Source: Isoetes taiwanensis (Eukaryota; Streptophyta; Lycopodiopsida; Isoetales; Isoetaceae). From it: a DNA stretch of 64,000 bases. A model generated the notes under the pieces. The model was not told the DNA's origin. It did no database searches and saw nothing but the letters and a program-made list of their open reading frames with translations. The translations under genes and the position numbers were made by a program. The stretch spans positions 9,433,141 to 9,497,140 of the forward strand of contig JAJEKV010000023.1 of assembly GCA_021234155.1 (NCBI GenBank), written 5' to 3'. This document shows positions 17,022-42,103 of the stretch, in pieces; the first letter of the stretch is position 1; every line of letters starts with the position of its first letter.

Positions 17022-17090
17022 AGGTCTCTAGTTGGTTGTTTAGCATATGTTGCAAATTGCTCTAGGCCTGATATAGCATACATAGTTAAT

Positions 17091-20418: not shown

Positions 20419-20626
<208 letters not shown>

Positions 20627-22639
20627 TGTGTTAAGCCAAGACAATGATAGCTCATTGTGAACTAAGAGTACAAACCACCTAGCTCATTGTGAACTAAGAG
20701 TACAACTTGTCTGCCTACCATTGAGGTAATAATCCTTTGCCCATGTAAAGGCACGAGAAATGTATTTTAAGTTACTTATAGACATCAAGAGTACACTATT
20801 TATAGTTTTTACAAGTACATAGCAACTTTGACTTTATGAATGTGAATTTGATATTGAGTACCATTATCGACACTTAGATATACAAAGAAAGGAACGTGCA
20901 ATTTACACAACTACCAGAGGGACTACAATTAAGAAATAGTAATACATCATATTGATGGTAGAAAGGATGTGAACAAGGTTGTTTCTCACAGGATGGAAAT
21001 GAATAGTCAAGCAAGGCCTAAGTAGCTATTGAAATTAAGAGGTAGGCAAAAATTGAGTGCGTAGTATTGAGCACATAATACTAAATTCTGGGTTGACCTT
21101 GCGTATTATATCGTACAAGAAATGTGCAGCCAAGGCCAAGGCAATTTTGTGCGAGTTCGAAATGATGTGGACCTCAAGCTTAGTGTAAACTGCCAAAAGT
21201 TAACCTAGTATCAACTTGAAGTATGGAGGATATGCCAGAATATTTAAAAATGCAGCCACCGTTGCCGCCAAGGAGATTTGTGTGAAGTTGGAATGGTGTT
21301 AAAAAGAATCGGTGTCTAGTTCTACTCGCATCACTCAACTCTTTTAAAATCATATTCCTCAACCACTAAGAAACAATGGATTGGCGTGAGGTGCCGAGCT
21401 CCTAAAAAAAACTTGTTCGATTCCCATTTAGAGGAGCATTTGTGCTTCAATTCCAATTTAGAATAGAATAGAATAGCATATATTTTTATTGCCACGAGGG
21501 GCATCTACATTATTGCATAGGCTTTATGCATAATTTCAAAAAGAAAAGGAAAGTAGGGATATAAGTACTCGTACCCCGCCTTTACAAAGGAACACAAACA
21601 TATGAAGAATCAATCAAAGTTTCAAAGGCTTGTACCACAATTTCGTAATTGCTTGATCCATAGTTGGGTGCATGACCTCGACGTAATAAAACCTACTGGT
21701 GTCATATTGTACATGCCCGTTATATACGTGAAATGGGTAAATCTGGCAAGCACGAAGGATTCTGCAAGCAAATGTGCTATCATAATGATTAGCATTTATC
21801 AGTTGAGGATCACAAATATAGTTTGAATTCTTGCTTTATCATATATATGCTTTGCTACACAACTTCCGATCCTGGATTTCATAAAATTATCTTCAAACCT
21901 TTGTAAAATAGGTATGATATGTATAATGTGTGTGCAAAAACTTAAAGGGAGGGTATACAAAAGTAAGGACAAAGATAATGAAATTCATATGGGCGAATTA
22001 TTGGCTTCCCTTTCGGTGTTGGATTCCAAAGCGTCAGTGTACCGTTTCTTCAAAAAAAAAAAAAAAAAAAAAAAGCGTCAGTGTATATTTTACAAGTCGA
22101 ATAGCATAACAATCAATTCCTTTATTACGTAGTAAGGATTGTTTCTATTGTAATAATGTTGTGTAGTGCAACTAGCTAGGTAGTTCGTTTGGTTTTCAAC
22201 AACTTTGGGCGGGTTTGAGCCCACCTTTTGACATTGTTTTAACTTTTGAGTTATTCGACTTACACAATATTTTTTTGACGTATTCGATTTACACAATATT
22301 CATGGAAATTTGCGAGTTTAATACCCCATTTTTTGTATTCGACTTGCAGAATAAAAACCAACTACGAGTCTAATACCCCTTTGGAATCAAACCCATAATT
22401 GGGAGCCAATAAATGCACCAAAATTCATATCCAAAAATATCGATGTCACTCATTGGCACTAGCACGAGAAGTGCCTACAAAATTATACACCATGCCAGGT
22501 TTACAAAATAATATCAAACAAAAAAAACTCATTGGGAGGCCTTTCAAAAGAACAAATGCACATCCGTTAGATATGGATGGGGACATCTGGACCGTCGATG
22601 CAATATAACTCTTTAATAAACACCGCCCATGCAAAGAAA

Positions 22640-23760
22640 CCCTAACGTTGGCCTAAAATACTAGGGTAGCATCGGAATCTGATGGAGGCGGTGGTTCTGC
22701 TCTATGTGAGCCGAAAATGCCATCTTGCCCTTGTTCTTCCCTGATTTCATCAGTTGCTGCGGAGTTCTGGGTAGAACGGCAGGATCTGGCATCAGACTGC
22801 GGATTTGTGCAAAGGTATTGCTTTGCTTGATATCAGATAGTAATATTCCACAGAGGTAGAAGTGCTCTTGCAATTTGTTTCTGGATTAGCTTGTGCTCTT
22901 GCAATTTGTTTCTGGATTTGCTGTGCTATTGAACTGAAACGGAATTTAGATTCCGGAAAGGTTGGATCCAGCTGCAGGTTCCGCAGTGTTAAGTTCATTT
23001 CTGAATTGTTGTCAGCAAAGAATAGACTTGGACTGCTTGCTGACGTTGGATGCAACAGAAGATTTGGTTTAAAGGAGGAGCATAGCCCAACGTCCTGTGG
23101 TAATTTTGTTATTGCTTCTGGTACGTTCTGTCTGTAGAAATATCTTGTTGGTGCCTATTTTAACACTGGTACCAATCCGCTGCGGAGTTCTGGTACCATT
23201 TACATATTCAGGATATGAAGCTCCGAAGACATTGAAATGTGGATTTGCTTGCAGCATGATCTCTTTCATTCTCTCTTACAAGCATTGGAATCAGATTTGC
23301 AGGTAAACCTCAATCTTTAAGGCATTTTTTTGTCATGCAAATATAGGGATACGACTTACCAAAAGCAGAAGAGCTCTTCAAGCTGTGCACATGGTATGTC
23401 TAATGCAAAGGTAATGTCAGACGTTGCAAACAAAATTCTCTTTGATTTTATGTATATTATAGTTCTGATGCATAGATTTGTTGCAAAAACCAGTTTATTA
23501 TTTGTTTTATAATCTGGAACAAGGCGGAAGGATTTTGTTTAATCTACCCTGGTTGAGCCAAAATGGCTTCTTAATCCAGCTTCAACTTGTGGCTGTAATC
23601 TTTAAAGCAAATGTAAGATCAGATTCCGTGGATTCCTTGTGTTCCATAGTCCAGATGCAAATTGTATTCTGTGTGCCCTATAGTTCTAATAAAAAGTCGT
23701 GGATATGTATTTATTTTGCAGGTTTTAGTCAAATGAATTAGGCATGCAAGTACCAAATAT
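22640..23760 (+). other. Gene-like segment carried in TIR element copy 1
   Basis: Shares long blocks with 48540-49074 in the second copy. Examples are a 5' leader, TCTTACAAGCATTGGAATCAG/TTACAAGTATCTTGGGATGG and AGGTAAACCTCAATCTTTAAGGC, then AGCTGTGCACATGGT. The boundaries look like exon-intron structure, with TTGCAGGTAAAC as a donor. No protein of recognised family can be read. This is probably a captured or ancestral host gene portion, kept in both copies. The rest of the element between 20625 and 22640 and between 23760 and 25083 shows no gene. Confidence 0.4.
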
Positions 23761-26523
23761 GCAAGTCCTACTTGCATCTAACATGTCTCACTCTAACAAT
23801 GTCTCACTTCGCATGTGCAGAAATGTTCACATAAGATTTAGATTGTATAAATGGAGGCTAGCAAAAGATCTGGCCTTCTGAAAATAATAGAACAAGAATA
23901 ACTCTTTTGAAGAATGGACCTTTCTAATGGCAACGTGCAGGTGCTTTCTTTTTTCTGCTTTGCTAATGTCTTGATTGTATACAGATCTGATTGGCTAAAG
24001 TGAATCCAGATTACGTATTGTGCGACTGAAGGGGACGAGCAGCAATGTTTGCCCTCTCAAAAAAACGATCAAGAAATCTGTCTTGCAGATGCTAGAAGTG
24101 TCTGGAACTGTCTGTACAAATGGCTCTTTCTTTTAAACAAATAAGAAACTTTTTTTTGTACAATTTGCATCTAAGTTTGCCTGCTGCACTGTTGTGTGAG
24201 GGCTAGCCCTCTTGAAAATTTTGAAAAGCAATTGGCACTATTGTGTGGAAGATTCTAGAATACTGCAACCAAAACGGAACGTAAAACTATAAACAAATTT
24301 TTTACTACACTAATATCCATTACGTAACGAAAAATATTTCTTTGAAGATGCAAAGCCATTTACTTTAATAGAAAACATGTTTATTATTTGGTAATAAACT
24401 AGGAACTTTTTTCTTCATAAACACTGGTCTTATGTCACTACAGCAACAATTTTATAGGGCAACCACCATGAGTTACAAAAAATCTTATACGATTTCATAG
24501 GGCAAACACCATGAGTTACAAAAATTCTTAAAGAGAAATCAATAGTGGTTTTCAATGGAATATGTCTTAGTTTCTTTACTAAATTAATATTAATTGTTAA
24601 TTTGAAACATATATGGCATACATCGAACACAAAATACTTTGAAGATGCAAAGCCATTATTATTTTGCGAGATGAACTGTTGGTTGTTTTAATGAGAAATG
24701 CGAAGTCTTTATTGTACCGCATCAATGGTTTATGCGTCAAGGTATCCATGAGTTTATTGGGACATCACTATGAGTTGCTTGGTTCCTTAAAGCTAAAGAC
24801 ATTAGTGGTTTACAACCTAAACTATTAATTGGACACCATGTCACTTAGCATTAAAACATATCGATAAATTCACCACCACAAAGAACCATAGTGGTAAACT
24901 ATACCAGGAAACTATAATAAGAAAATATAGGTGCTTACTATGTGAATATACCACATTGAAAAACCATAAGTATGAACCTCACTATTTAACTGCATCTAGT
25001 TATTCAACATATTAACCCACAAAGTAATATTAGTTTATCTTAGTAGTATAACACAAAAAATAACACAAAATATCAATAACAGTTTTTTTGGGGCCTTTCC
25101 ACGTATCACTGCAACCTTGGAATGTTCCAGTGGGAAGAATGAAGGGGTCGTTTACCCTGTCTCCCTCAGGGCCTACCTAGCTGCGGAAGCGCAATATACA
25201 TGTCAGTAGTACATACATCAATAACATATGACCACCACGAGGGGTGGCTCACCACATAATCTGCATAAACAAAGATCAGTACATCACATAAGGGAGTTCT
25301 ACCCTGGCTCAGACACAGGGTTGGACTGACAAGCTTGGGTTTCCAGAGGTCAAGCAGACAGAGTGCAATAACAGTGGAGTTGGCTGGCAAAGGAACATGG
25401 CAGTTGGGTAGTCCGCTCCATCCGCCCCTCCTGTGCACACTTTGCAGAGTAGGTTGAAAAGTGTTGGGACCTGACTGTAGCCCGCCGGATGCATAGCCAA
25501 AGGGGCTATTCCTGGGTTGCATCTCCCCAGTTCCGATGGGGCAGGTAGGGATCTCTCCCTCCAGAGATCTACATGCTGACTCAAGGTGACTAGAGGGCCA
25601 CTGCCCTTATCCGACTTGAACCCAATGGAGAGTGACGCATCACTCCACGGGTGTCGAGCCCATGCCTTGCACACACGCAGTGACAAACCATTAGACCTAG
25701 TCCACAGGGATCCCTGGTAGGCCTTACACACCAGAGGGATCATTCTCATGAGTCAGGACATGAACCTCCTTATGAGCCAGTCTGGCCCCTTCACCCACAA
25801 CCAGGTGTGGCTCTTGTACACAGGCCGAATATTAGTAGTGCACTAAAGGGACTAGCTAGGAGCATCAACTACTAGGCTTGTAGGCCTCTACCCCCCTTCC
25901 CAATACAATGAGTCCACAGAGGTCATCCATCCATCCACATCATCACAGAACTAAAGAATAATATCTAATCTACATCATAGAAGTTATGTTCTTTAGTTAG
26001 GGCTCGCTATCTGGGGTTCTATGTGGCTGTTATGGGCAATTCAATAGGCTAATCATGCTAACTCTATGATCGGAAGGCGGAGTAGGCTATTGAATTGACG
26101 AAATACCTGGTCCCTGGCTTGCTCCTCTTGTTCCGAATGCGTCCATGTCGCTGTGTTGCTTGGGGATGCGGTCGGAAAGGAAATCTGACGAGCTAGAGTG
26201 ATCAGGCAGATCTTGGGAGTCGGAATTGACTCTTGAAGCGCGCGAACTGGAGCTCGGAAGGTTCATGAACGAAAAGTTAGGGTTTGGTTGCCTTACATAG
26301 GCTATCAGTTAGGGTTAGGGTTTCCATGACCCTTGGTATGCCTCTTAAAGGTTAATGGTCTAGAGTGCGCGCATTAATAAGTGTGCGCACCCTTGCAAGT
26401 TGCCCCCTAGGGCGCCACTTGCTTGGCTACACGTCGGTGTACACGTCAATTGGAATGGCGTGTACGCGTGACGGTGCAGTACGGTATACGTCTTGAGACC
26501 GTATATCGTACTGGAACATCACA

Positions 26524-27337: not shown

Positions 27338-28473
27338 TTAGTCGATTTCTTCGGAGATGATCTTGCCGTCCCATTGCTCCATGAATTCCGGGTACTGCCT
27401 TATGAGGTCGTGCTTAAGTACCCACGTCGCGTCTTCCACTGGCAAGTGTTTCCACTTGACCAAGTATTGGAGAAACTCTGATCTTCTTGTTTTCTTGATT
27501 GCTTTATCCAGGATCAAGACTGGGATTATCTCTAGCTGCTCTTCTGTCATTTCCAACAAGGTTGGCGTGTCCAAGACTTCTTCTGAATTTGGAGTATGCT
27601 TCTTCAACAAACTCACGTGGAAGACCTTATGAATCTTGAGGTGTGCTGGCAGGTCCAGCTTGTAGAATTGATTTTCTACTCTCCTGACTATTCTGAAGGG
27701 TCCAGCCCACCTTGAAGCAAGCTTCTTGCAATTTTCGATGCGGAGCTTTGCCTGCTTTACCTTGATCTTGAGCCAAACATTGTCGCCAACTTCAAACTCT
27801 CTGACTGTTCGGTGCTTGTCGGCGATGCTCTTTTGTCGACTCCTTGCTGCAAGAAGATATCCTCGAACTTCTTCTACCAGCTGCTGCATGTCGGCCAACA
27901 TTTGCTGCGAAACCTCTACTTTTGACACTGGATTGTGCCATGTGTCTGGAGTTAGGCATTGATAGTCGTAGTTGATTATGAACAACGACATTTGGGATAA
28001 TTCCTGCTTGGTGCTATTATACGCGAACTCCATCAAGTGAATAAATTCTTCCCATATACCCTGCTTGTTCCAGACATAGTTTCGTAGCATGTCTTTCAAA
28101 ATTCTGTTGGTCCATTCCGTTTGCCCATCCGTCTGAGGATGATAGGCCGTGCTCATGGACAGCTTCGTCTGAATTGTCGTAAACATATCTTGCCAAAAGG
28201 CACTCATGAACTTCGGGTGTCTGTCGGAGATGATCTCTCTCGGCATGCCATGGAGCCTGAAGATTTCTTTGGTGAAGAGCTTTGCTGTATCCAGAGCTGT
28301 GTCTGTGGCCTTGCAAGGCACAAAATGTGCCATCTTCGACAACTTGTCGACCACGACCATCAAGGCGTCCTTCCCTCTTACTGTCCTTGGAAGCCCTGTT
28401 ATGAAGTCCATGCTGATGACCTCCCACTTCGCTAATGGTTCCAATGCCCCTGGAATTCGGAGCTGCTCCATCT
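27338..28473 (-). pseudogene. Gypsy integrase core with C-terminal chromodomain
   Basis: The open frame from 28473 begins MEQLRIPGALEPLAKWEV; residues upstream in the same frame are copia C LTR. The integrase triad is visible: Asp in SMDFITGLP, Asp in ISDRHPKFMSAF, Glu in GQTEWTNRIL (family GQTERTN). The GPFRIVRRV and HKVFHVSLLKKH motifs follow. The final 50 residues, FLQYLVKWKHLPVEDATW then EFMEQW, form a chromodomain as in chromoviruses, which reads histone marks to guide insertion. The N-terminal zinc-binding part and all upstream pol are missing, cut off by copia C. Confidence 0.92.
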
Positions 28474-29020
28474 TGAAAAGTTTGTTCAAATCACAAATGC
28501 AACTTAAGACATTCACGTTGTCTTACAACTTCAACACAAATACTTCTCCTTTACTTAGACCATAGAACCTTTAGACCATTGAATCATTACAATTCAAACC
28601 ATTATAATGCAATCCAAAATACAGAATCGAAGCATATAAGATAAAAACCACTTCGCCTATATCAATGATCCATTTGAACTTACAGATCGGTTCCCCCTAG
28701 AGCCGATTCACCTCCGGTGTCAGGTCTGCCTTGTTCAGATCTGTTAGTTCTTTCTTATCAGCTTGTTTCCGGTCGGTTCGGCATCAACATAGCTAATTCT
28801 ATCCACGTTCGTTCTTTGTCACCATTTCATTTGGCCGAGTTCTAATTTTCATCAACCAATAACTAACACCCAAATCATTAATTCAATGGTCTCGTATTTC
28901 CAATGGTCTCGATATTCAATGGTCTTGATCACCTTCATATCATAAGGTTTTACCTTCAAACCTAGTTCACAAACTTGAAGACATTGATTCATGATATTTT
29001 AACTTTCATTCCCCCTTCAT
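28474..29020 (-). repeat. Copia C 3' LTR (right edge uncertain)
   Basis: 28474-28802 matches 34706-35034 closely. Beyond that the partner LTR is truncated, so the edge cannot be set by comparison. TTTCATTCCCCCTTC at about 29003-29018 could be the complement of the PPT, which would end the LTR near 29005. Confidence 0.7.
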
Positions 29021-29184
29021 GAATCAATATCAAACTGTATTTGAGCCAAGCGATTGTTTCACTTCACCATATTCTTATACTTGCTTCTGATTGCTTCTGA
29101 TTCATAATGCAGTAAACTTCCTTCAATGCTTTAGTTACTTCTTTACTGTATTGCTGTCTGCAACCTTAAAACATTACTAAGACA

Positions 29185-29865
29185 TCACACCTTTACTGTA
29201 TGGACTCCCAATAGCCCTTGCAACTTCTGAAACTTTGTGATAGTGATTGCTTTAGTTAAGATATCAGCAATCTGATTATCTGTATGAAAATATTCCACTA
29301 TGATAAGTCCAGAGGCAACCATTTCTCTAATGTAATGGACATGCAATTCAATGTGCTTCGTTCTTTCGTGCAGCACTGGATTTCTCGTGATTGAGATGCA
29401 ACTCATATTGTCTGAAAACAGGCTGGTTGGTTGTGTTTGTGGTATACCCAGCTCTTCCAAAAGTCTTCTAACCCATATTATTTCTCATGAAGCTAATGAT
29501 GCCACCTTATATTCTGCTTCAGTCGTAGACACAGCTATACTTTCTTGCTTCTTACTTCTCCAAGATATACATGCTCCTCCAAGTATCAGCGGATATCCAA
29601 AGGTTGATTTGTGTATATCTATATCTCTAGCCCAATCAGCATCAGAGTATGCTACTAAGTTCAGATTATTGTTACAATAACTAGTGCCATAATTCTGAGT
29701 TCCTTTCAGAAATCTCAGAATCCTTTTGGCTGCCTGCCAATGTTGTCTCCCTGGATTATTCAGAAATCTGCTGAGCATATTTACCCCAAATGAGATATCT
29801 GGCCTTGTGCAATTTGACACATATAACAAACATCCAATTAGTTCTCTGTAAGGCACGGTTGCCAT
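29185..29865 (-). pseudogene. Copia C RT end and RNase H
   Basis: 29485-29865 reads VPYRELIGCLLYVSNCTRPDISFGVNMLSRF and the RNase H start AYSDADWARDIDIHKSTFGYPLILGGACISW. 29185-29460 continues with LFSDNMSCISITRNPVLHERTKHIELHVHYIREMV and NQIADILTKAI. A stop or indel between 29460 and 29485 separates the parts. The domain order and motifs are otherwise complete. Confidence 0.85.
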
Positions 29866-29913
29866 TTGTTCTACTTCTGCTTCAGTTGAAAGACATGAAT
29901 CAGAACTGAGTTT

Positions 29914-30717
29914 CTATCCTTGGACCAGAGGTGTATTCGCTGCATTGCATAAAGTCATGCCAAATCTTCTTATCATTCCTTCTATGTTTTCCTTTTGAGT
30001 CAAGACAAGTCTTCCCTTTTCTCTATCTCTAGTTACCTCTATTCCCAAGAATTTTTGCAACATTCCCAAATCTGTCATCTCAAATCTATCTTTCAAAACT
30101 GTTTTGCATTTGTTCAAGCATTCCATTCTGTTTGAGACCATAATGCAGTCATCTACGTACAAGGCTATAATGCAAAAATTATCCTCATACCTGTATTTGT
30201 ACAAATTCCCTTCATTGTTCAGTTTTGCATATCCATGCTCCTTTAAAAAATTGTCTATGCACAGGTACCACTGCCTAGGCGACTGCCTTAGCCCATATAC
30301 AGCTCGATCTAATTTCCAGACCTTGTCACCTTCTATTTCAAAGCCTTTAGCTTGTTGCATAAATATTTCCTCCTCTAGTTTTGCATTCAGAAAGGCGGTT
30401 TTCACATCCATATGATGTATTTCTAGATTTAAAGCATTTGTATACGCCAACAAGGTGTGTATGCTTGTCAGTTTAACCAGGGGCGAAAAAGTATCTTCAA
30501 AATCAATGCCTCTTTTTTGAGTGAAGCCTTGAGCCACTAATCTGGTCTTGTACTTCTTTTGGCCATCATTTCCTTTCTTAAGCTTAAATATCCACTTGCT
30601 TCCTACAATGTTTTTTTCTTTAGGCTTGTCTACTACCTTATATGTGTTCGTCCTCTTAAAAGAACTAATCTCTTCTATCATGGCCCTTTTCCATTGCTCA
30701 GTATCTTTAGACTCCAA
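29914..30717 (-). pseudogene. Copia C reverse transcriptase
   Basis: A 267-codon open block: EQWKRAMIEEISSFKRTNTYKVV, then GSKWIFKLK, KTRLVAQGFTQKRGIDFEDTFSPLVK, HHMDVKTAFLNAKLEEEIFM, VYGLRQSPRQWY, active site IIALYVDDCIMVSN and FEMTDLGMLQKFLGIEVTRD. All standard copia RT blocks are present and in frame, so this is the best RT domain in the window. It is separated by short breaks from integrase (30717-30733) and RNase H (29865-29914), and so is likely part of a once continuous polyprotein. Confidence 0.9.
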
Positions 30718-30732
30718 AGCATCCTCATATGA

Positions 30733-31308
30733 CTATGGCACATCAGGTTCCACAATAGCAAGCACAGCACGAATGTCCTTCTCTTCTAACCTTTTACTTC
30801 TTCCCCCTTCTTGTCTCCCAAACCTAGTTGTGTCAAAGTTTATTCCTCTCTTCAATTGTTCCAATTCTGTTTTTTCTTTTGGTTTCGTTTCTCTTACTTT
30901 ATTTTCTGCTTCAACCTCAGCAGCCTGCTCTAATTCAGAATTGTAGTTTTGTTCCAGGTTTTCCATTGGTTCCTCTTCCATGTCACTGTACTCTTCAATG
31001 TACTGATCTGCCCGAGCATTCTCATCTCTTGTTTCCTCTTCTACTTCTTCCTTTTTTTCTTCATTTTCTGTTTTATGCTTTCCAATTAATATATCTCTGT
31101 CTTTGAACAACACATTCTCATCAAAACTTACATCCCTACAAATAAGAATTCTTTTATTCTCATGATCATATAGCTGATAGGCTTTGGAGATTTCATCATA
31201 CCCAATCAAGAAACTCAGTTTTGCTTTGTCATCTAACTTTTTCCTTAATTCTTCTGGAATATGTGCAAATGCTACACATCCATAGGCTCTGAATTTTTCA
31301 AAGCTCAC
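30733..31308 (-). pseudogene. Copia C integrase C-terminal region
   Basis: Reads FRAYGCVAFAHIPEELRKKLDDKAKLSFLIGYDEISKAYQLYDHENKRI, the conserved segment after the copia integrase core, followed by a strongly acidic spacer (KTENEEKKEEVEEETRDENA) leading to RT. A stop lies between this and the core at 31308-31372. Confidence 0.82.
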
Positions 31309-31371
31309 TTCTCTATTTGTCCATATCTCCTCTACGATTTTCCCATTTAGGCTTGCCAGAGGTATTCTGTT

Positions 31372-32670
31372 TTATATATGCACAGCTGTGAGTACTGCTT
31401 CTTCCCATAGATAGTTTGGAAGCCCAGTATGCTTCAACATGGCTCTAACTGCATCCAGGATAGTTCTGTTCTTACGCTCTGCAACACCATTTTGCCGAGG
31501 AGAGTACCTACATGTCAACTGCCTTTTGATTCCCTTTTCTGAGCAGCATCTTTTGAATTCATGAGATAAATATTCTCCACCACGATCTGATCTAATGCAC
31601 TTTATTTTTCTATTAGTGTCTCTTTCCACTTCTGCCTCAAACTTTTTAAAAGCATCAAATGCTTGATCCTTAGTTTTAAGTGTATAACATTTCGTTCTTC
31701 TAGAATAATCATCAACAAACGTTATAAAGTACCTTTTTCCATGAAGACTCCTCACGTTCAAAGGACCACAAAGGTCTGAATGTATCAGGTCCAGAATTCC
31801 TTTTGCTCTCTTCTTCGATTTCTGGAAAGGTAGACGAGTGTGCTTACCAAGTTTGCAGCCCAAACATGTAAATTGTTCAATGTTATCATCTGAAGCAATT
31901 ATTCCCCTTTTGATCATGAATTTAACATTATTTTGATGAGTATGCCCCAGCCTTTCATGCCACAGTCGTGCAGATGGTAATGATACAACATTTATACTTT
32001 CTGAAACATCCTTATTTGAAAAACCAAACAAATTTCCCACTCGTTTTGCCAAAAACTTGATTTCATTATTATAAAACACTTTACAATACTTCTTCTCAAA
32101 GCGCACCTTATATCCCAAGTCAACTAACTGACTTATGGATATCAAGTTCCTGACAATTGAAGGTACGCACAAAACATTTTCTAGATTCACTATATTTCCA
32201 TCTAGATCATACAGCTCCAGCCAGCCAGCTTCTTCGACCTTCTGAAGTACTCCATTCCCCATCTGTACATGATGTGAGGTCTTCGTTTTCCTATTTCTGA
32301 GTTTATTTGCTGACTTGACTATGCTTCTCTCAGCTCCACTATCTAGCACATATAATTCAGCATTAGATTCATTTTCTAGAGCACTCAAAGCATTATCAAT
32401 AGTTACCTCAGCCTCTGTGTCAGATTCTCCATCATCAGCATCTTTTGCTACATTTACGGATGCAAATTCTCTGTTGCCAGTTCCTCTACCTCTCCCTTTT
32501 GTAGTTCGTGTGCCTCTCCTACTATTGGTAAGGTTTCTGCCTCTTCCTCTTCCCATATCCTTTGGACTGGAGCAGTTGCTTGCAAAGTGTCCGTACCCTT
32601 CACAATCATAGCATATCAATTCTCTACCTTCTCTGCTCCTTGGACAGTTTGCTTTCAAGTGCCCAAACAT
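31372..32670 (-). pseudogene. Copia C zinc knuckle, protease, pre-integrase, integrase core
   Basis: Begins FGHLKANCPRSREGRELICYDCEGYGHFASNC (knuckle region), then an Arg/Gly linker. The aspartic protease motif VLDSGAERSIV keeps DSGA, unlike copia A and B. Next come LCVPSIVRNLISISQLVDLG, the pre-integrase zinc region (H…H…CLGCKLGKH) and the integrase core with HSDLCGPLNV, RSDRGGEYLSHEF and RQNGVAERKNRT (complete D-D-E). 432 residues are open. It ends at a stop after TAVHI, where the family continues with Y/VQNLLP. Confidence 0.9.
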
Positions 32671-32890
32671 CTTGCAGCTAAAGCAGGGTTTGCATTGCCT
32701 TTACTTTTCTCAGCTAGAAGTACCTCAGTATATACGTCCTCATCTTCCTCCTTTGCTAACTTCATTTGTTCTATTTCTATTCTGATCAGTACTTCAGCCT
32801 TCTCCCTATTTCTTCCCATTGTCCTAACTAGAGTACTTAATTGACCAAAGCTCGAAAAGGCTCTAGCCAGGTTGAGTACCTGGAATTCTC
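32655..32890 (-). pseudogene. Copia C gag, C-terminal part
   Basis: Reads EFQVLNLARAFSSFGQLSTLVRTMGRNREKAEVLIRIEIEQMKLAKEEDEDVYTEVLLA and leads toward the zinc knuckles with a frame change at 32655-32670. It is the continuation of the gag N-terminal part beyond the insertion at 32891-34227. Confidence 0.75.
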
Positions 32891-33952
32891 GCGTAATAGA
32901 ATCAACACCATATAGTATTCCGCTTGAAATCTTATAGTATTTTGCAAATCTTGTTATACAGTATAGCAAATTTTGTACTTGCATACCCCACAAACGAGGA
33001 ACTTTACGTACGGTGTAGATTAAGGAATAAGGGGTGAATATGCCTATCCAACAGCTCTCGTTGCCCGGAGTCACCCCCGGTGTGAATATGCACCCAAACC
33101 AAAGGGGGTTTAAGGGGGATTTTAATTTAAATGTGTTGGATCCAATGGTTGTGTTAATTAATGTCAATGGTAGTTATGTGTTGGTTGTTAATGTCAATGG
33201 TTGTTATGTGTTGGTTGTTATGTGTTGGGGGATTTAATTTTTATATGTTGGATGTTAATGGTTTGTGTTGCAAAAAAATTTTTTTGGCCCCTTCGGGGCC
33301 TTAGGGACGTCCCCCAGTGTGACAAAAATTTTAGAATTCAAACCGGAAAAAAACTAGAATTCATTTGAGGCTTTCATCACCTATAGCTTTTGAATTTTAT
33401 CACAATAAAACAAATAGAACATAAGTAAAAGTTACCATAAAGATAGAGCAGATTGATCCCATTATTCTGAAAGTCATAAAGTTTGCAACACCCATACACA
33501 AACATTTTTCAACTGGAATTTAACAGCAGCCTTTGGCCTCTATGGATTCTTGTGGTGAGAAACCAAAGTGGGAAACTTTTCTGCTTGTTAGCACAAGGAT
33601 CTAGAAGCCTTGGAATTTGCTTAATAACTGCCTCAAAATCTAAAAATGCATGGTAATTTTTTGCAAGCTTCATTCGAAATGAGTCATAAAACAATATCCA
33701 ATAGCGCAATCCTGTATTAATCAGCTGGTAGGATGTGAAAGCCTACCAAACCCGGCCGAAAAATTGCTGTTTTAGCATGGATAACTTAACCAAACATATC
33801 CATATCATACACTATCAAAAAGATCTCGGAGAGAGCTTTCCAACGCAATAAAAATCATCTCAAACAGAGCTCTGGATCAAAAGTTATGATAAGAAATGTG
33901 TTGCCGGCGGGGAAACTGCACTACAAGCGCCCTTCAAGCCCTTCATGTGCCC

Positions 33953-34066
33953 ATTATGCACCACACACACAAAAAGAGGGCTTTTGTTGTGAGCCATTGG
34001 TTGTTGACCATTATGCACCACACGCACAAAAAAAGGGCTTTTGTTGTGAGCCATTGGTTGTTGACC
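33953..34066. repeat. 57-bp tandem duplication
   Basis: Two copies (33953-34009, 34010-34066) of a unit starting ATTATGCACCACAC and ending GGTTGTTGACC, with very few differences. Confidence 0.92.
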
Positions 34067-34108
34067 ATTGGAAAAAAAAAAGGCTAAAATCAATGGCTCA
34101 GAAATGGT

Positions 34109-34227
34109 GCACTCTAGATGTACGCATTAGTACATCCATTTGAATACATCACGAAATCATAGGAAAACCTTAGTGAAAAGCGTACAAAAACACAAAGAAA
34201 ACCCCCTGTTATTATGCTACATATTAG
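34109..34227. repeat. Dispersed repeat module, copy 2
   Basis: Same 119-bp length as 384-502 and the same ends (GCACTCTAG…ATATTAG). Here its right end coincides with the point where copia C gag coding resumes, which marks it as a true element terminus. Confidence 0.7.
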
Positions 34228-34683
34228 GCACCTTGGCTGCTTCCAAATCTTCAATAATATTATCAAATTTCTGGAAAAACTGAGTAAGATTATCACCTTC
34301 TTTATATTTGAGTCTCCTTAATTCTCTGTCAAGCATCTCAATTTGAGAGGTATTTTTGACTTCATACATTTTAACAAGATATTCCCACATTTCCTTGGGC
34401 GATTTATCTCTAATTTTTTGCTTGCAATAATGACTTTTGCCTCCTGCACCTTTCCTTTCACATTACTTCTTTCACTTGTACCAGCACCACTAGAAGTTCC
34501 TTCACCATGCTGTGAATTCATTGAGTTGTGTTCACCTTCAGCTTCCATGTCTCCACTGACATAGTCCCACAGTCCTTCTGCAATAAGAACATCTGTCATT
34601 CTGTTTTTCCAGGCCTGAAAGCCTGCTTCCCCTTCGTACAGACTAATTTCACTCAATAGACTTGCTCCAAGCCTTGTTGCCAT
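34228..34683 (-). pseudogene. Copia C gag, N-terminal part
   Basis: ATG at 34683 opens MATRLGASLLSEISLYEGEAGFQAWKNRMTDVL, the UBN2-type gag start. A frameshift near 34370-34410 moves to the frame reading QIEMLDRELRRLKYKEGDNLTQFFQKFDNIIEDLEAAKVPN, which ends at the foreign insertion. Confidence 0.8.
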
Positions 34684-34692
34684 ATCTAACCT

Positions 34693-34705
34693 GCTCTAAT
34701 ACCAA
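34693..34705 (-). promoter_or_regulatory. Copia C primer-binding site
   Basis: GCTCTAATACCAA, reverse complement TTGGTATTAGAGC; one mismatch to the usual initiator-Met complement (TTGGTATCAGAGC). Confidence 0.85.
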
Positions 34706-35034
34706 TGAAAAGTTTGTTCAAATCACAAATGCAACTTAAGACAATCACGTTGTCTTACAACTTCAACACAAATACTTCTCCTTTACTTAGACCATAGAAC
34801 CTTTAGACCATTGAATCATTACAATTCAAACCATTATAATGCAATCCAAAATACAGAATCAAGGCATATAAGATAAAAACCACTTCGCCTATATCAATGA
34901 TCCATTTGAACTTACAGATCGGTTCCCCCTAGAGCCGATTCACCTCCGGTGTCAGGTCTGTCTTGTTCAGATCTATTAGTTCTTTCTTATCAGCTTGTTT
35001 CCGGTCAGTTCGGCATCAACATAGCTAATTCTAT
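34706..35034 (-). repeat. Copia C 5' LTR, truncated
   Basis: Starts TGAAAAGTTTG and follows 28474-28802 closely, then stops abruptly at gypsy sequence GCTTGGCCC. About 200 bp or more of outer LTR is missing. Confidence 0.88.
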
Positions 35035-35123
35035 GCTTGGCCCTTGTCTTTGTAGTACTGCTGCTTCGGCCCACTTTTTGGAGGCCCCGATCCTTGAAGG
35101 CTGACGGCCTTCGATTCCGCCTC

Positions 35124-36113
35124 TTAGACTATTCGAGGGTTGATTGCCCTCATCAGCTTCCTTATCTCGTCATTCAGCCCTTCGATGTATCCTTCGACTG
35201 CAAGCCGTTCACTTAGCTTTGGCACATACAGCCTCAGCCTCATGAATTCTTCCGTGTATTTTTGCACGGACTTATTTCCCTGCTGCAGCCTGTAGAACTG
35301 TTGCATCATATGGCATTTGTGCTCTCTTGGCACATCGTGTCGTTTGAATGCCTTGGAGAATTTCTGAAACCTGCAGCTATCTCGGCTTAGCTTATGTGAC
35401 TTGGCATACCCTTTCCACCATATGCGAGCTGCCCCCTTGAGGTTTGCTGTGGCCACCTTGCCCTTGTCCTTGTCCATCCCGTAGGCATTACCGTATTCAT
35501 TCATCTCGTCTAGCCAGACCTCTGCCTCCATACCTGACCTATTGTCACCCGAGAACTGCTCGAGCTTTCTTGCCTTCTACACATTGCTGAGTGCGGAGTC
35601 TACCTTCTTTTGATAATCAGAGGCCCCTGCTGCCCTGAGCCTGCCCTCTCTGCAGTCTTGTACTTCTTCTTCCTCGGAGTCGGAGTCCGATTTTGAGCTG
35701 GTATCGGAGGTGTCTGTGCTAGGAGACCTCCTTCTCTTGCTCCTCTTCTTATCTTTCCCCGACTTTCGAGGTGTTGCTTGCAGCCCTTGAGCGTTGTTAT
35801 CCGGCCCGACTGATGCTTGTGCCGCCAGTAGGGCTTTTATTTGTTGAAGTTCCGACTTCATTTGTGACATTTCTTCTTCTGGGGTTAGAGGGCCGTATTC
35901 CTCGAACAGGTTCCTTGCAATGGGTTGCCTGTCCGGGGTCTCTTCATCTCTGTTGGCTCTCCTGTCTCGTTCGACTGTTCTTTGATCCCTAGCTGCATAC
36001 ACAGTTGACCATAGCCTTACGGTTAGATTTATTTGCTTTATCGCATTCATGTATTTGCCGATATAGTTTTGGAACCAAATACAATCAACAAAACATTTTA
36101 AGGTTGGCAACAA
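35124..36113 (-). pseudogene. Gypsy gag (retrotrans_gag) with in-frame TAG
   Basis: One frame runs from 36113 to 35124, interrupted by a single TAG at 35577-35579. The first part has RNLFEEYGPLTPEEEMSQMKSELQQIKALLAAQ (coiled-coil-like), then a basic and Ser/Asp/Glu-rich segment. After the TAG the frame reads KARKLEQFSGDNRSGMEAEVWLDEMNEY, then ANLKGAARIWWKGYAKSH, CHMMQQFYRLQQGNKSVQKYTEEFMRLRLYV and YIEGLNDEIRKLM, the retrotrans_gag core. It ends at 35124 just before a linker (SGPKQQYYKDKG in another frame) that should precede the zinc knuckle, now deleted. The stop is most simply decay. Confidence 0.86.
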
Positions 36114-36170: not shown

Positions 36171-37070
36171 CTATTCTTGAAATCCCCGGTAGGATGGGTT
36201 ATCCTCAAGAAATTTCTTAACTTGGGTTGTTCCTACCAAACGTCCCAAGTTCCTGAGAATATTAGTTGATGTACCGCCCTGTAAGGCTTGCACCAATTCT
36301 TCTACTCTGCGGTCGGACGTATAGGCCGCGGTCACCGCTAGTCTTTCCTGCCGTCGGTAGGGTATGGCGAAGTCGAAGAGGTCAAGTGCCATGGCTCTCT
36401 TGACTAGGATGACATGGTCAACCGTTGTGAGCAGTCGAGCGTGCCTGCCAAAGCCGGAGAGCGCAATGAGCATGAACACTCCTTCCTCGCCTCTTGGGCT
36501 GAACTTGCGGTGTATGACCGCTATCCTTCCGTCCATCAGCAGGGGCAGATAATGCCTCAATGATCTGTCCCTGCTTGCTGCCGACGAGTCGTCATCTCCT
36601 CGCCCACCAGCTCTGTGTCTGCCCGCGTACTCATCGACATCGACTTTTGTGAGTTCTCTGTAGTCCCTGACCGTCGATGAGATCCGCCTGAGGTCGATCT
36701 CGCCTCTTCTTTCTGTTGGGGCTGTTGTCGAAGAGCTCGGCATTAAAATATTCGTGGTCTTCCCACGGATCCCCATCCTTTCTTGGATGTCGTAAAACTC
36801 TTCTTCAGTTGGTAGCTCCCTAGCTTCCATTATTTGCCTGATGTTGCTGTAGGTTTTTATGTCTGAAGTCGACTCTCCGGTGTAAGTGTCGGCTTCTCTT
36901 ACTTGAAGTGGAAAGTCAGAGGCTCCTCGGACGATGAAATCGTCCAGCTCTGATTGTTGCCACAGCTGGTGCAGCAACTCGTCGAGTCTGTATCCCCTTT
37001 CCCTGCATTCGGGGAGGTTCTGGATGTCGTTGAGGAGTAGGTATTCCTCACCGTCGATGATGATGGGGGC
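36171..37070 (-). CDS. Gypsy ORF of unknown function, immediately before gag
   Basis: 268 residues are open from 36977, and the frame extends upstream without stops to about 37126 (LRIAPPLGLGITSLAPIIIDGEEYLLLNDIQ). It overlaps the end of the preceding ORF in another frame, so the two may once have been one protein or be joined by frameshifting. Composition is globular in the C-terminal half: RHYLPLLMDGRIAVIHRKFS, VFMLIALSGFGRHARLLTTVDHVILVKRAMALDLFDFAIPY. No motif is recognised. It lies 58 bp upstream of the gag frame. Extra ORFs before gag are known in some Tat-lineage elements, but I see no homology to them. Confidence 0.5.
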   Translation of the reverse strand, partial: APIIIDGEEYLLLNDIQNLPECRERGYRLDELLHQLWQQSELDDFIVRGASDFPLQVREADTYTGESTSDIKTYSNIRQIMEARELPTEEEFYDIQERMGIRGKTTNILMPSSSTTAPTERRGEIDLRRISSTVRDYRELTKVDVDEYAGRHRAGGRGDDDSSAASRDRSLRHYLPLLMDGRIAVIHRKFSPRGEEGVFMLIALSGFGRHARLLTTVDHVILVKRAMALDLFDFAIPYRRQERLAVTAAYTSDRRVEELVQALQGGTSTNILRNLGRLVGTTQVKKFLEDNPSYRGFQE

Positions 37071-37084
37071 TAGGCTTGTGATGC

Positions 37085-37699
37085 CTAGCCCGAGCGGGGG
37101 AGCAATCCTGAGAGTCCGCCGCTCGCTTCAAAAACTGCTGTCTCATGCTCTGCCAGCTGCCGCTCTTCTTCTGGGTCAAGCTCGACATAGTCCTCATCAT
37201 CAGAGTCCTCGTCTTCGGCTTTTCCTTCCTGCTCTTGTTGGTACTGCAGAAGGAGTTGATCTACTCTTGAGGAGGCTATGGGGTCTACATCCATGGGAGG
37301 GATGGAGGTTTCCCCAATAGGGTTCTGGGCACGGTGAGAGAGAAAAATTGCTAGGGCTGCGGTGTAGGAGAAATACTTGGTCTTGTCAACAGTCAAGACC
37401 ATGTAGTCTGGCAGCCTCTGAGCCCTGTTGGTCAGGTACTTGGCAATGTTTGGAACATCACCCAAGGCTGCTTGGAGGGATGGCCTAGGAACAAAATAAC
37501 CTGTGCAAGGGGGGAGCTGCACTAAGGACGGTCCTACCCTCGCTTGGAACTCGGTGAGGACTTCTCTGTAAGCTGGGGTTGTGTGCAGCGTGGCTTGGAC
37601 ATCAATCTCCTTCCGAAAAACTCGGAAGATGGCATTGACATCAGCCTCGGCTGCATGGCCACTGGCGCTGTACCATCTCCTGAAGTCAGCAGTTGCCAT
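37085..37699 (-). CDS. Gypsy ORF of unknown function, second after the leader
   Basis: ATG at 37697-37699 opens MATADFRRWYSASGHAAEADV; about 204 residues. The N-terminal 140 residues look globular (VLTEFQARVGPSLVQLPPCTGYFVPR, TKYFSYTAALAIFLSHRA). The C-terminus is very acidic (KAEDEDSDDEDYVELDPEEE). It ends at 37085, overlapping by about 40 bp the open frame of the next ORF. No family is recognised, and I see no histone-fold or movement-protein motif. The 5' side (37763-38010) is noncoding and leads into the hairpin repeats. Confidence 0.5.
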   Translation of the reverse strand: MATADFRRWYSASGHAAEADVNAIFRVFRKEIDVQATLHTTPAYREVLTEFQARVGPSLVQLPPCTGYFVPRPSLQAALGDVPNIAKYLTNRAQRLPDYMVLTVDKTKYFSYTAALAIFLSHRAQNPIGETSIPPMDVDPIASSRVDQLLLQYQQEQEGKAEDEDSDDEDYVELDPEEERQLAEHETAVFEASGGLSGLLPRSG

Positions 37700-38010: not shown

Positions 38011-38482
38011 GTCTCACGGTGTGCGCTAGGGCACAAAACCAAAAGTTGGTTTTTGGTCTGGGCGCATACCGTGAGACATTGGCCCTATTTTGGTCAATAC
38101 TTATCTAAACAAGCTAAACTAAGAGTCAAAACATGATAGTCTCATTGAGATAATCAAGATTGACCCCTTACTTGACCGATTTGGATACGTTTTGGTCTAG
38201 TTTCAGCATGGAGGTCTCACGGTGTGCGCCAGGGCACAAAACAAAAAGTTTGTTTTTGGCCTGGGCGCATACCGTGAGACATTGGCCTATTTTGGTCTAT
38301 ACTTGCCCAGTTGAGGTAAAGTAAGGGTCAAAACATGATAGTCTCATCGAGATAATCAAGATTGACCCTTTACTTGGTCGATTTGGTGAAGTTTTGAGCT
38401 AGTTTGGGCATGCAGGTCTCACGGTGTGCGCCAGGGCACAAAACTAAAAGTTTGTTTTTGGCCTGGGCGCATACCATGAGAC
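38011..38482 (-). repeat. Three 67-nt hairpins in a 202-203-bp tandem array
   Basis: Hairpins at 38011-38077, 38214-38280 and 38416-38482. Arms are GTCTCACGGTGTGCGCCAGG and CCTGGGCGCATACCGTGAGAC, with an A-rich/T-rich inner stem (ACAAAAC…TTTGTTTTTGG). Each is nearly self-complementary over its whole length. The spacers are also alike (for example AACATGATAGTCTCAT and ATAATCAAGATTGACC), so the full unit is about 202 bp. The array fills the gap between the histone-like gene and the next ORF. It could be an RNA structure acting in processing, translation or packaging. No function is shown. Confidence 0.9.
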
Positions 38483-38628: not shown

Positions 38629-39878
38629 TTACTGGCGTTCTCCCTTAATATAACTGGCCAGTTCCATGTCTTTCTTCATCAGTGTGACTCGTTTAGCATG
38701 TACTGTGCAGGCTGTAGAATCTTCGAAGTGCTGCACCAGCTTTTGCTCGGCCGCTTCCTGTAGCGCCAGCAGCATTTCGTCTGTTACCCTCATCCCGGTG
38801 TTAAACTCCTGCATTACTTCTCTAACTAAGCGGGCGAAGGGGGCACGGGGAATCAGGAAGCCGAAGCTACGCTGGAAATGCCGGATCTCCCTTAATGCTC
38901 TTTGCTGGCTGTCTTTCTTCCCGGTTCTTTTTCCTGGCTTCCGTGGAAGCTTGGGTATCTCAGGAGGTGGCTTTAGTGTCTGCTTCTTCGATGGTCGTCC
39001 TCCCGCAATGAAAGTCACCTTGTTCTCCTGATAGTAGGCATTATATGCCTCCCACTTCTTCATGAACTCGGTGTGTTCTTTCATTTTCCTCTGGTAGATC
39101 CTCTTGGGGTCTGTTACGTATGCTTATCGGGCAGGTCTTGGCGCCTTCTTCCTATCCCAAGTCGGGTAGGGTAGGGGTTTCTGTGCCTGCTCGGGCTGCT
39201 CCTAGTCTGGTGTCGCTTGCTCATTGACTGGAGCCCTCGAAGAACTCCCAACTTCAGGGTTGGGGTTGAAGTTCCCGTCGTCCGATTCGTTTGACGAAGC
39301 AGGTTTGTCGGGGGGGCGCTCCTCAATGACGATTTTTGTTCGTGGAGTCTTCTTAATCTTTCTTTTGGGCCGCTCCACGAATTTGCCCTTCTTCTGCTTC
39401 AGCTCTTCGGCCTCCTTGGCCTCCTTCTCCTCCCTCTTCCTCTTTTTTTTCGCCTTTTTCTTTTCTCGGCGCCGCTCTTTTGCCTCGTGCTCCCCTCGGT
39501 TGGCTCGGGGTTTGGCTCCGCCTGTTCTCCTTGTGGCTCAGCGACCCGATCGTGCTCCTCTTTTTGCTTCTTCTCTTGCTTTTCCTTCTTTACCTGCTCG
39601 AGTACTTTCTGCATTTCGTCGTCCTCGCCATCACTTTCCTCGAGCACTACTGTTCCCGCATCCGAGTGCACCTCCTCGTCGTCTTCCCGCTGATCTACTT
39701 TTTGATCGATTATATTGGCGGGGTCATCTCCTTCTTGGTGCTCCTCTGACTCTGCCCCTTCACTCGCTGAGGCTTGGCCTCCTGTGGCAAGAAGGCACCC
39801 TCGAAGCATTTGCTGGAGTAGGGCGCTTGCTGGTGCATCTCCATGAGGAACTCGAGCAGTCTGTTTGGTCCTGGCCAT
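38629..39878 (-). pseudogene. Retrotransposon-encoded histone H3/CENH3-like protein
   Basis: ATG 39876-39878 opens MARTKQTARVPHGDAPASA; the first nine residues equal the histone H3 N-terminus including Lys4. A long linker follows: acidic (VVLEESDGEDDEMQKVLEQV), then Lys/Glu/Arg-rich. One base-class frameshift at the T8 run (A8 on the coding strand) at 39443-39450 moves to the frame that continues to 38629. That frame has TAG at 39202-39204 and TAA at 39124-39126. The C-terminus, 38892-38632, is an 87-residue H3 fold: LREIRHFQRSFGFLIPRAPF (alpha-N), RLVREVMQEF, LLALQEAAEQKLVQHFED (alpha-2), CTVHAKRVTLMKKDMELA (alpha-3), ending IKGERQ. By eye, 46 of 87 residues match canonical H3. IPRAPF, LLALQEAAE and TLMKKDMELA resemble plant CENH3, while loop 1 has canonical H3 length. 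It would be about 416 codons, against 135 in H3. First gene of the gypsy element; decayed here. Confidence 0.93.
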
Positions 39879-40566
39879 GTTTTACGATTTGTAGAACGGA
39901 GTTATGGCGCCCATAAATTGCCTCGACGAGTGGGAGCACTTTTCTAACCAGGAACCTACAAATGAGGGGGGGAGAGGGGGTCTATGTCTACTTATAGTTT
40001 GGCCAATTTTAGGTCAAATTTCAAGTTACTCTTTTGGATGTGCTAAGGCACCTATTAACCTATTACAATGCTTATTTCACACTTTTCTTATCCATGGTCT
40101 CATGGTGTGCGCCAGGGCATAAAACAAAAAGTTAGTTTTTGGCCTGGGCGCATACCGTGAGATATCTCTCATTTCTGACAAGATTTTATGATTTCTAGAC
40201 ACATTCTTAGGGGTATAGCATACAAATCTAGCTAGATCTTACCTTAAAACTCGATTTAGCATGTTGGTTTGTTGAAATTCATCATGTTTCTAGGTAATTA
40301 TGGCCATGTCTCACGGTGTGCGCTGGGGACAAAAACTGAATTTCTGTTTTTGGCCTCGGCGCATACCGTGAGACCTTTGCTTTAAAGGTCAAAAATTTAA
40401 TCAACTTTTTAGTCTTCTTATGTTTCAATTATGCTAACTGTTACTAGCTTAGCATATACTACAAAAAATGAGAAAACTTTTCTCACTTTTTCGAGGTTGA
40501 GGATCCTATTGAGTTAGTACTACTGGGAGCATGGTCAGTGCTTTGCTCTTGGTCACCAAGAACATT
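39879..40566 (-). promoter_or_regulatory. Gypsy 5' leader with two 67-nt hairpins
   Basis: Noncoding leader between the PBS and the histone-like start codon. It holds two more copies of the hairpin, at 40097-40162 and 40308-40374. These are more diverged (GTCTCATGGTGTGC; a GCTGGGGAC arm in the second). The same structure thus flanks the histone-like gene on both sides and occurs nowhere else in the element. Confidence 0.85.
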
Positions 40567-40578
40567 GCTCTGATACCA
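40567..40578 (-). promoter_or_regulatory. Gypsy primer-binding site
   Basis: GCTCTGATACCA, reverse complement TGGTATCAGAGC, one base from the LTR edge; initiator-Met tRNA type. It fixes the element's orientation as minus. Confidence 0.92.
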
Positions 40579-40579
40579 C

Positions 40580-42103
40580 TGTGACGTCCCCTACTCATAT
40601 ACGGTGCACTCACCGTATGCAAACAGGAGTTCATCCCCCATACCAGCTCCATGCTAATATAGGGCCCTCCACGTATCACTGCAACCTTGGAATATTCCAG
40701 TGGGAAGAATGAAGGGGTCATTTACCCTGTCTCCCTCAGGGCCTACCTAGCTGCGGAAGCGCAATATACATGTCAGTAGTACATACATCAATAACATATG
40801 ACCACCACGAGGGGTGGCTCACTGCATAATCTGCATAAACAAAGATGAGTACATCACATAAGGGAGTTCTACCCTGGCTCAGACACAGGGTTGGACTGAC
40901 AAGCTTGGGTCTCCAGAGGTCAAGCAGACAGAGTGCAATAACAGTGGAGTTGGATGGCAAAGGAACATGGCAGTTGGGTAGTCCGCTCCATCCGCCCCTC
41001 CTGTGCACACTTTGCAGAGTAGGTTGAAAAGTGTTGAGACCTTACTGTAGCCCGCCAGATGCATAGCCAAAGGGGCTATTCCTGGGTTGCATCTCCCCAG
41101 TTCCGATGGGGCAGGTAGGGATCACTCCCTCCAGAGATCTACATGCTGACTCAAGGTGACTAGAGGGCCACTGCCCTTATCCAACTTGAACCCAATGGAG
41201 AGTGACGCATCACTCCACGGGTGTCGAGCCCATGCCTTGCCCACACGCAGTGACAAGCCATTAGACCTAGTCCACAGGGATCCCCGGTAGGCCTTACACA
41301 CCAGAGGGATCATTCTCATGAGTCAGGACATGAACCTCCTTATGAGCCAGTCTGGCCCCTTACCCACAACCAGGCATGTGGCTCTTGTACACAGGCCGAA
41401 TATTAGTAGTGCACTAAAGGGACTAGCTAGGAGCATCAACTACTAGGCTTGTAGGCCTCTACCCCCCTTCCCAATACAATGAGTCCACAGAGATCATCCA
41501 TCCATCCACATCATCACAGAACTAAAGTATAATATCTAATCTACATCATAGAAGTTATGTTCTTTAGTTAGGGCTTGCTATCTGGGGTTCTATGTGGCTG
41601 CTATGGGCAATTCAATAGGCTAATCATGCTAACTCTATGCTCGGAAGGCGGATTAGGCTATTGAATTGACGAAATACCTGGTCCCTGGCTTGCTTCTCTT
41701 GATCCGAATGCGTCCATGTCGCTGTCTTGCTTGGGGATGCGGTCGGAAAGGAAATCTGACAAGCTAGAGTGCTCAGGCAGATCTTGAGAGTCGGAATTGA
41801 CTCTTGAAGCGCGCGAACTGGAGCTCGGAAGGTTCGTGGACGAAAAGGGAAAAGTTAGGGTTTGGTTGCCTTACATAGGCTATCAGTTATAGGGTTAGGG
41901 TTTCCATGACCCTTGGTATGCCTCTTAAAGGTTAATGGTCTAGAGTGCGCACATTAATAAGTGTGCGCACCCTTGCAAGTTGCCCCCTAGGGCGCCACTT
42001 GCTTGGCTACACGTCGGCGTACACGTCAATTGGAATGGCGTGTACGCGTGACGGTGCAGTACGGTATACGTCTTGAGACCGTATATCGTACTGGAACGTT
42101 ACA
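40580..42103 (-). repeat. Gypsy 5' LTR
   Basis: 1,524 bp, plus-strand view TGTGACGTCCCC to GAACGTTACA. It is uninterrupted and so documents the empty site of the TIR insertion in its partner. It contains the short palindrome ATACGGTGCACTCACCGTAT at 40599-40618 and a similar one near 42058-42095. It should hold the promoter for the minus-strand transcript that starts with the histone-like ORF. Confidence 0.94.

Follow-up and report, generated by a model that had tools for sequence, protein, structure and literature searches.

Why would a retrotransposon carry a histone? The question is raised by a locus of Isoetes taiwanensis in which an H3-like coding sequence lies within a Ty3/gypsy element, and it is followed here through the window (the whole stretch of 64,000 nucleotides that was analyzed) and then through the genome. 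An earlier note on this DNA had described a chain of open frames that starts with MARTKQTAR and ends in an 87-residue H3 fold, and both are found on the minus strand at 38629-39878. The fold scores 96.6 bits against PF00125 in Pfam (cut-off 26.4, E 1.6e-27), and its best PDB match is histone H3.3 (1.2e-25). Judged by these matches, the ORF1 fold is an H3-type histone fold; a copy from a second clade, L035, scores 141.2 bits against the same family.

The element in the window

The window element is a Ty3/gypsy chromovirus that has been disrupted by nested insertions (Table 1). Its boundaries are as first described: the 5' LTR is followed by a primer binding site, which we take to be complementary to initiator Met tRNA, the 5-bp target duplication TTGGT stands at both outer ends (19749-19753 and 42104-42108), and the 3' LTR is split by an insertion. 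The H3 ORF is the first ORF 3' of the 5' LTR, and the overall order is ORF1, ORF2 and gag-pol. ORF1 runs through three frames, 39399-39878 with MARTKQTAR, 39202-39537 with part of the charged linker and 38629-39123 with the fold, so the window copy is broken by frame changes. The gypsy order gag-PR-RT-INT with a chromodomain is read from two copies: gag, protease and RT are found by Pfam in the first 947 residues of a frame in copy A7, one of ten copies fetched for comparison, and rve and the chromodomain are found in the integrase frame of the window.

The element shares gag, protease, RT, integrase, chromodomain, a Met-type primer site and a 5-bp target duplication with plant chromoviruses, but it adds two ORFs (H3 and ORF2) between leader and gag as well as repeated hairpins before them. 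Other nested elements are apparent from translations elsewhere in the window (3232-7877, 9636-12245, 13770-17675 and 18395-19549), with an apparent LINE-type RT and several copia-type frames.

Table 1. Parts of the H3-bearing element, its hairpins and the insertions that interrupt it, in window coordinates
Feature	Position	Strand	Evidence
5' LTR, 1,524 bp, TG...CA ends	40580..42103	-	96.7% identity to 25091-26523; 97.8% over 92 bp to 19754-19846
Primer binding site TGGTATCAGAGC	40567..40578	-	exact in 9/11 clade A copies
65-nt hairpin, leader copy 1	40309..40373	-	
65-nt hairpin, leader copy 2	40098..40162	-	
ORF1, histone H3-like: tail, charged linker, H3 fold; three frames in window copy	38629..39878	-	
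H3 tail start MARTKQTAR	39852..39878	-	
H3 fold, 87 residues	38632..38892	-	Pfam Histone 1.6e-27
65-nt hairpin, ORF1-ORF2 spacer copy 1	38417..38481	-	
65-nt hairpin, spacer copy 2	38215..38279	-	
65-nt hairpin, spacer copy 3	38012..38076	-	
ORF2, ~500 aa, two frames in window copy	36171..37699	-	related frames in 11/11 A copies
gag-pol start with Ty3 capsid domain	35034..36002	-	Retrotrans_gag 7.2e-17, Ty3_capsid 7e-12 on frame 35124-35576; tblastn with copy A7 pol
Nested copia-type element within gag-pol, ends approximate	28474..35034	-	repeats 28474-28802 / 34706-35034, 98.2% identical
Integrase end of pol, SH3-like domain and chromodomain	27338..28495	-	rve 2.4e-9, SH3_Tf2-1 4.3e-20, Chromo 2e-9 on frame 27338-28522
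3' LTR, first part	25091..26523	-	LTR identity
5.2-kb insertion splitting 3' LTR	19847..25090	.	inferred from two LTR pieces
3' LTR, last part	19754..19846	-	adjoins TTGGT target duplication

Copies and clades in the genome

The genome searched comprises 1,658,258,908 bases in 1,110 pieces. With the 87-residue window fold as query it yields 8,887 first-look candidates, and all 150 that were scored match at E<1e-43; these are clade A. An Arabidopsis H3 query yields 9,022 candidates, and the 150 scored divide into 15 host H3 genes at 96-98% identity and 135 places at 71-86%, of which 15 loci (L024-L038) were read and define clade B. Mean fold identity is 55% between A and host H3, 88% between B and host H3 and 54% between A and B (18 A, 15 B), and A and B are recovered as one group each when 25 folds are placed in a tree over 86 columns. 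The earlier note had made its proposal depend on other copies of the ORF; these are found, both as the scored fold places and as the ten fetched copies, which hold the fold in the same element context. The match is free of stops and lies in an open frame of at least 400 residues at 20 of the 150 places scored for A and at 49 of the 135 for B. It is close to certain that a large gypsy family of the Isoetes taiwanensis genome encodes an H3-type histone and that this family has two clades.

The H3-like start can be followed as a DNA pattern for MA[R/S]TK[Q/E]TA[R/S], which occurs at 1,008 places genome-wide, host H3 genes included (of the first 100 listed, 3 are at host genes); the reversed pattern occurs at none. 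On contigs C1-C906, for which the listing of the pattern is complete, the start lies 0.96-1.33 kb upstream on the same strand in 8 of 13 A folds, within 5 kb of none of 10 B folds, and within 16 kb upstream of RT at 2 of 9 RT places.

Ten A copies (A1-A10), picked from 20 with long open frames, were compared with the window copy. ORF1 is present in all 11, its fold-bearing frame being open for 447-507 residues in the ten fetched, and ORF2 frames lie downstream of it in all 11. Gag or pol follows in 10; the A1 stretch, with an insertion in ORF2, stops short of gag-pol, and A2 shows the first 182 residues of gag-pol only. When the 150 best RT places are paired with the 150 listed A folds, RT lies 0.5-15 kb downstream on the same strand in 21 pairs, 15 of them at 4-6 kb, with one further pair in reverse order and one on opposite strands; these counts are lower bounds because only 150 of 30,706 RT candidates were scored. 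B folds are in none of the pairs formed by these 150 best RT places.

LTR pairs are 96.4-98.3% identical in the window copy, A6, A7 (1,071 bp) and A9 (98.0%, with target duplication GTTCC) and 88% identical in A10; from A4, A5 and A8 there are just fragments or nested repeats, and from A1-A3 no pair at all. The insertions so measured are therefore far younger than their lineages. Copy A5 (L050/L051) holds a 7.5-kb repeat, and both A5 and the clade B copy L062 are in tandem-like arrangements.

ORF2 has no Pfam match on the pieces tried. Its sole relative in the protein database, P0131, is 45% identical over 400 residues. The C-terminal part of ORF2 is strongly conserved, and its predicted structure (mean pLDDT 35.5, alignment of 12 rows) is too poor for use.

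Two clade B copies bear on the anatomy of that clade. L062 and A have in common a piece of the LTR (84% over 159 columns), as well as their primer site and the succession of ORF1 and ORF2. Within ORF2 of L062, a weak relationship to A ORF2 and P0131 is confined to the second part; the first part shows no relation. A tblastn search with A pol found no A-type pol in 10 kb of L062, and the stretch downstream of this copy recurs at ~8.9-kb spacing in a few clusters on C1044, C1075 and C941 (40 of 604 candidates scored). Behind another B copy, a 1.3-kb piece contains the end of gag, the protease and the sequence that leads into RT; it is 37-57% identical to A in four pieces and is interrupted by stops and frame changes. 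Taken together, the two copies indicate that both clades are gypsy elements with the H3 ORF before gag-pol, and one ancestral H3 capture for both would be the simplest reading. L062 is a derivative; that clade B as a whole is an element without pol, as this copy suggested, is ruled out by the related gag and protease behind the other.

Hairpins of 65 nt (TCTCAC...GTGAGA) occur in all 11 A copies (A1-A10 being L042-L061). A scan of the window finds five in total, all in the leader or the ORF1-ORF2 spacer. Each A copy has 1-2 hairpins in the leader (none found in A8) and 1-3 in the spacer, and none lies within ORF1 or ORF2 of the 11 copies; the stretch taken as gag-pol holds one in A1 and three in A5, both of which are rearranged loci. 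For 29 of the 34 distinct hairpins, 85% of cells pair. Cells changed on both stem sides number 49 versus 23 in shuffles, with 0 of 500 as high (29 hairpins), and three pairs of the lower stem account for 15 of the 49; at each of the three, the five sequences that changed are those of the window. Neither the pairs with two-sided change (8) nor the further pair types (25) are above shuffles (396/500 and 457/500, respectively). No Rfam family matches the 65-nt hairpin at gathering score. A different hairpin, of 69 nt (TCGGGCGCCG...CGGCGCCCGA), lies 5' of ORF1 in 3 of 8 clade B copies scanned, at L028:273, L035:258, L036:2992 and L062:2258, L035 and L062 being one copy. The hairpins may serve translation or packaging. 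Hairpins 5' of ORF1 and ORF2, the downstream ORF2 and a second, more canonical H3 clade are features beyond those first described.

The encoded histone, its source and its conservation

Clade A ORF1 begins with ARTKQTAR, continues with a charged stretch of roughly 320-370 residues and ends in a diverged H3 fold. The canonical H3 length and full tail (K4, K9, K14, K18, K23, K27 and K36) are absent, only the first 8-9 residues being present. A start of the form MARTK[Q/E]T[A/T]R is legible in 8 of 11 A copies (the window copy, A1, A2, A3, A4, A5, A6 and A8), although in A1 and the window copy it sits in another frame than the fold. Of the other three copies, A10 has a stop at Q5, A7 is without a start codon there, and in A9 none is seen. 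K9 is present in four of the eight legible tails (A2, A3, A4 and A8). The N-terminal part of clade B differs from that of A, an H3-like start is absent from all seven aligned B proteins, and the H3 core is nearly canonical.

At 38 of the 86 positions in the fold, the commonest A letter is not that of host H3. At the contact positions compared, the commonest letter keeps the H3-H3' contacts in 8 of 8 cases in A and in B and the DNA contacts in 11 of 18 cases in A and 17 of 18 in B. A database search with clade A ORF1 returns eight distant matches, two named Caenorhabditis and one named histone H3. For clade B ORF1 there is no full-length relative among the best 120 of 5,821 protein matches, which cover 23-41% of the query, and the predicted structure (pLDDT 42.5, alignment of 7 rows) is too poor for use.

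The earlier note had proposed capture of an H3 or CENH3 gene. An H3-type gene stands, and for its source the evidence points both ways. In a tree, three plant CENH3 sequences join the clade A fold with support of 97/92, the CENH3 branches being long, and the alternative grouping of A with B is not rejected (p=0.088). Seven A fold changes from H3 match at least two of the three CENH3 sequences; at seven other positions A retains the H3 letter, which is shared by no more than one of the three. Clade A thus resembles plant CENH3 at the first seven positions and perhaps in its place in the tree, but it differs in its location within a retrotransposon, in its ARTKQTAR start, and in loop 1, where A, and B likewise, has H3 length and is without the longer loop of the three CENH3 sequences. 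The ARTKQTAR start is typical of H3 and not of plant CENH3.

Selection was gauged by dN/dS across copies, as first proposed, using Nei-Gojobori pairwise medians that leave out pairs saturated at synonymous sites (57 of 153 among 18 A copies, 2 of 105 in B). The fold medians, biased downward because copies were picked by fold similarity and an open frame, are 0.054 in A (pairs of ten copies, median synonymous distance 1.05) and 0.025 in B (seven copies, 21 pairs, median synonymous distance 0.67). In A the fold has the lowest median of four ORF1 segments, with 0.15 for the stretch before the fold, 0.26 for the linker and 0.13 for the first 20 residues (13 pairs, few codons); in B the N-terminal part gives 0.055 and the linker 0.18. 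Host H3 gives 0.010, two wrong frames used as a control give 2.0-5.5, and the uncorrected ratio of proportions at all distances is 0.07-0.10 in A and 0-0.05 in B. Close pairs with copy A3 have a higher fold ratio, 0.16-0.22 at dS 0.1-0.16. Folds of this kind would not survive neutral decay over synonymous distances near 1, and these ratios make it close to certain that purifying selection kept the H3 fold while the lineages diverged.

Against single reference copies, A medians are 0.21 for ORF2 (10 copies), 0.09 for gag, 0.19 for PR-RT (6) and 0.18 for RH-INT (7), the gag and pol values (0.09-0.19) resting on fewer pairs, and the comparison of fold with pol is not clean. In the three A7 pairs measurable for both (A4, A9 and A10), the fold gives 0.13, 0.10 and 0.08 versus 0.39, 0.07 and 0.32 for PR-RT, and is therefore below PR-RT in two pairs and above it in one (A9); gag gives 0.06, 0.09 and 0.38.

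Compared with copy A7, the fold is synonymously saturated in five of nine copies, and PR-RT differs by just 0.2-0.7 in the six measured. A saturated fold with a little-diverged PR-RT points to exchange of an ORF1-ORF2 module between subfamilies.

Two other origins were considered for the H3 ORF. A one-off processed H3 pseudogene is ruled out by copy number and dN/dS, and a multiplied host gene independent of the element is ruled out by the LTR, primer site, ORF2, gag-pol context and RT co-location. The central proposal of the earlier note, that a gypsy chromovirus lineage encodes an H3-type protein whose tail and fold are separated by an expanded region, and does so in the first ORF behind the 5' LTR, is borne out by many copies and by signs of purifying selection.

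Possible roles of an element-encoded H3

Histone H3 has been captured by hAT DNA transposons in Dothideomycetes fungi, in tens to hundreds of copies (PMC6710886). In both cases a transposon took up H3 coding sequence and multiplied it. However, theirs is a DNA transposon whose Pseudocercospora copies are mostly truncated and RIP-inactivated (PMC6710886), whereas the Isoetes carrier is an LTR retrotransposon in which H3 appears to have been remodelled with a long insert and kept by selection across diverged lineages. The hAT hallmarks of a transposase, inverted repeats and an 8-bp target duplication are not found in the window element, which has LTRs and a 5-bp duplication instead. Orchid Ty3/gypsy elements carry an AlkB-type RNA demethylase ORF (PMC9289625). 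In that case too a plant gypsy element acquired an additional ORF from its host and retained the captured regulatory gene as it replicated, although this gene encodes an RNA-modification enzyme and not a histone. An extra-domain screen of 121 angiosperm genomes, with lycophytes outside it, reports 15 domains, and no histone is among the nine that are named in the text available (PMC9289625).

DNA viruses, too, encode histones (PMC9145170), and a Helentron carries broken fragments of histone genes (PMC4067079). Bracovirus H4 (CpBV-H4/CvBV-H4) joins host nucleosomes and has an altered tail (PMC5423620; PMC9145170). Like the Isoetes protein it is a single histone encoded by an element, with a fold close to that of the host (~87% identical) and extra residues at the N-terminus, but it belongs to a DNA virus, is an H4, has a 38-residue addition and has been shown to enter nucleosomes. 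In the main text available, the viral histone review PMC9145170 makes no mention of retrotransposons or retroviruses and the Isoetes taiwanensis genome paper (PMC8566536) none of a histone; nor is a histone mentioned in a review on extra ORFs of plant LTR elements (PMC7264820). Among the matches listed from open-licence PMC papers there is no report of a histone in a retroelement. Since H3 capture is known in hAT elements and no retroelement histone is among these matches, the Isoetes element is apparently the first case, relative to that literature, of a histone H3 kept by selection in an LTR retrotransposon.

What might the element gain? In the reading that we tentatively prefer, to which as a whole we give a little less than an even chance, the element would produce an H3-like protein from its own RNA, this protein would pair with host H4, and ordinary histone chaperones would take up the pairs. 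The element H3 would then enter nucleosomes, probably on element DNA, and would be most useful on new cDNA or on the integrated element. Clade A nucleosomes would display a tail with R2 and K4 and without the normal K14-K36 stretch, which could be read as open chromatin and be a poor substrate for transposon-silencing marks, and silencing of the element would be delayed as a result. Pairing with H4 and entry into nucleosomes are likely, as suggested by the kept interfaces and the bracovirus H4 precedent, and the anti-silencing role is the least certain step. Because clade B is without the H3-like start, tail presentation would not be the whole function in both clades; with tails that differ, a shared function would have to lie in the fold. 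It is possible, although more doubtful, that element H3 replaces host H3 on element DNA, that the transposon in this way supplies the substrate on which its own epigenetic state depends and escapes the usual host marking, and that both clades derive from one capture.

A kept fold could also serve before integration. Together with host H4, the element H3 would wrap new cDNA in the particle or nucleus, aid import via the histone route and give the chromodomain integrase a matched chromatin partner, a role in replication or target choice and not in anti-silencing. The integrase does bear a chromodomain, the H3-H3' and many DNA contacts are kept, and the fold is selected in both clades despite their differing tails, but judged from its letters the chromodomain seems to be without the aromatic cage that reads H3K9me, being of the group II type as in PMC12786077, and we consider this role unlikely. 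Still less probable is a decoy that titrates host factors (H4, H3 chaperones, or modifiers and readers of the H3 tail) without incorporation into nucleosomes. A soluble mimic would fit the long charged linker and intact H3 start of clade A, as well as the extent to which its fold departs from host H3 (38 of 86 positions); yet a decoy of tail readers requires no intact fold, which is the ORF1 segment with the lowest dN/dS of the four, and clade B has no such tail.

It is very improbable that the captured histone gene is a passenger of no use to the element, as in the hAT elements of fungi, where the Pseudocercospora H3 capture gave hundreds of inactivated copies (PMC6710886). A long open frame is likewise missing from most of the Isoetes places scored, 130 of 150 in A and 86 of 135 in B. 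However, a passenger would hardly have median dN/dS of 0.054 (A) and 0.025 (B) at the synonymous distances reported above, or a fold kept in two clades whose gag-protease pieces are just 37-57% identical, and open frames of at least 400 residues persist in both clades.

Plant transposon silencing rests on histone H3 marks, and a self-made, selected transposon H3 would be a direct counter-move. If the preferred reading, in which element H3 enters nucleosomes and resists silencing, is true, the element is a natural experiment on which H3 residues silencing requires. The family also provides a large set of H3 variants with altered tails and selected folds, and it offers a way to ask if element-made histones pack retroelement cDNA into nucleosomes.
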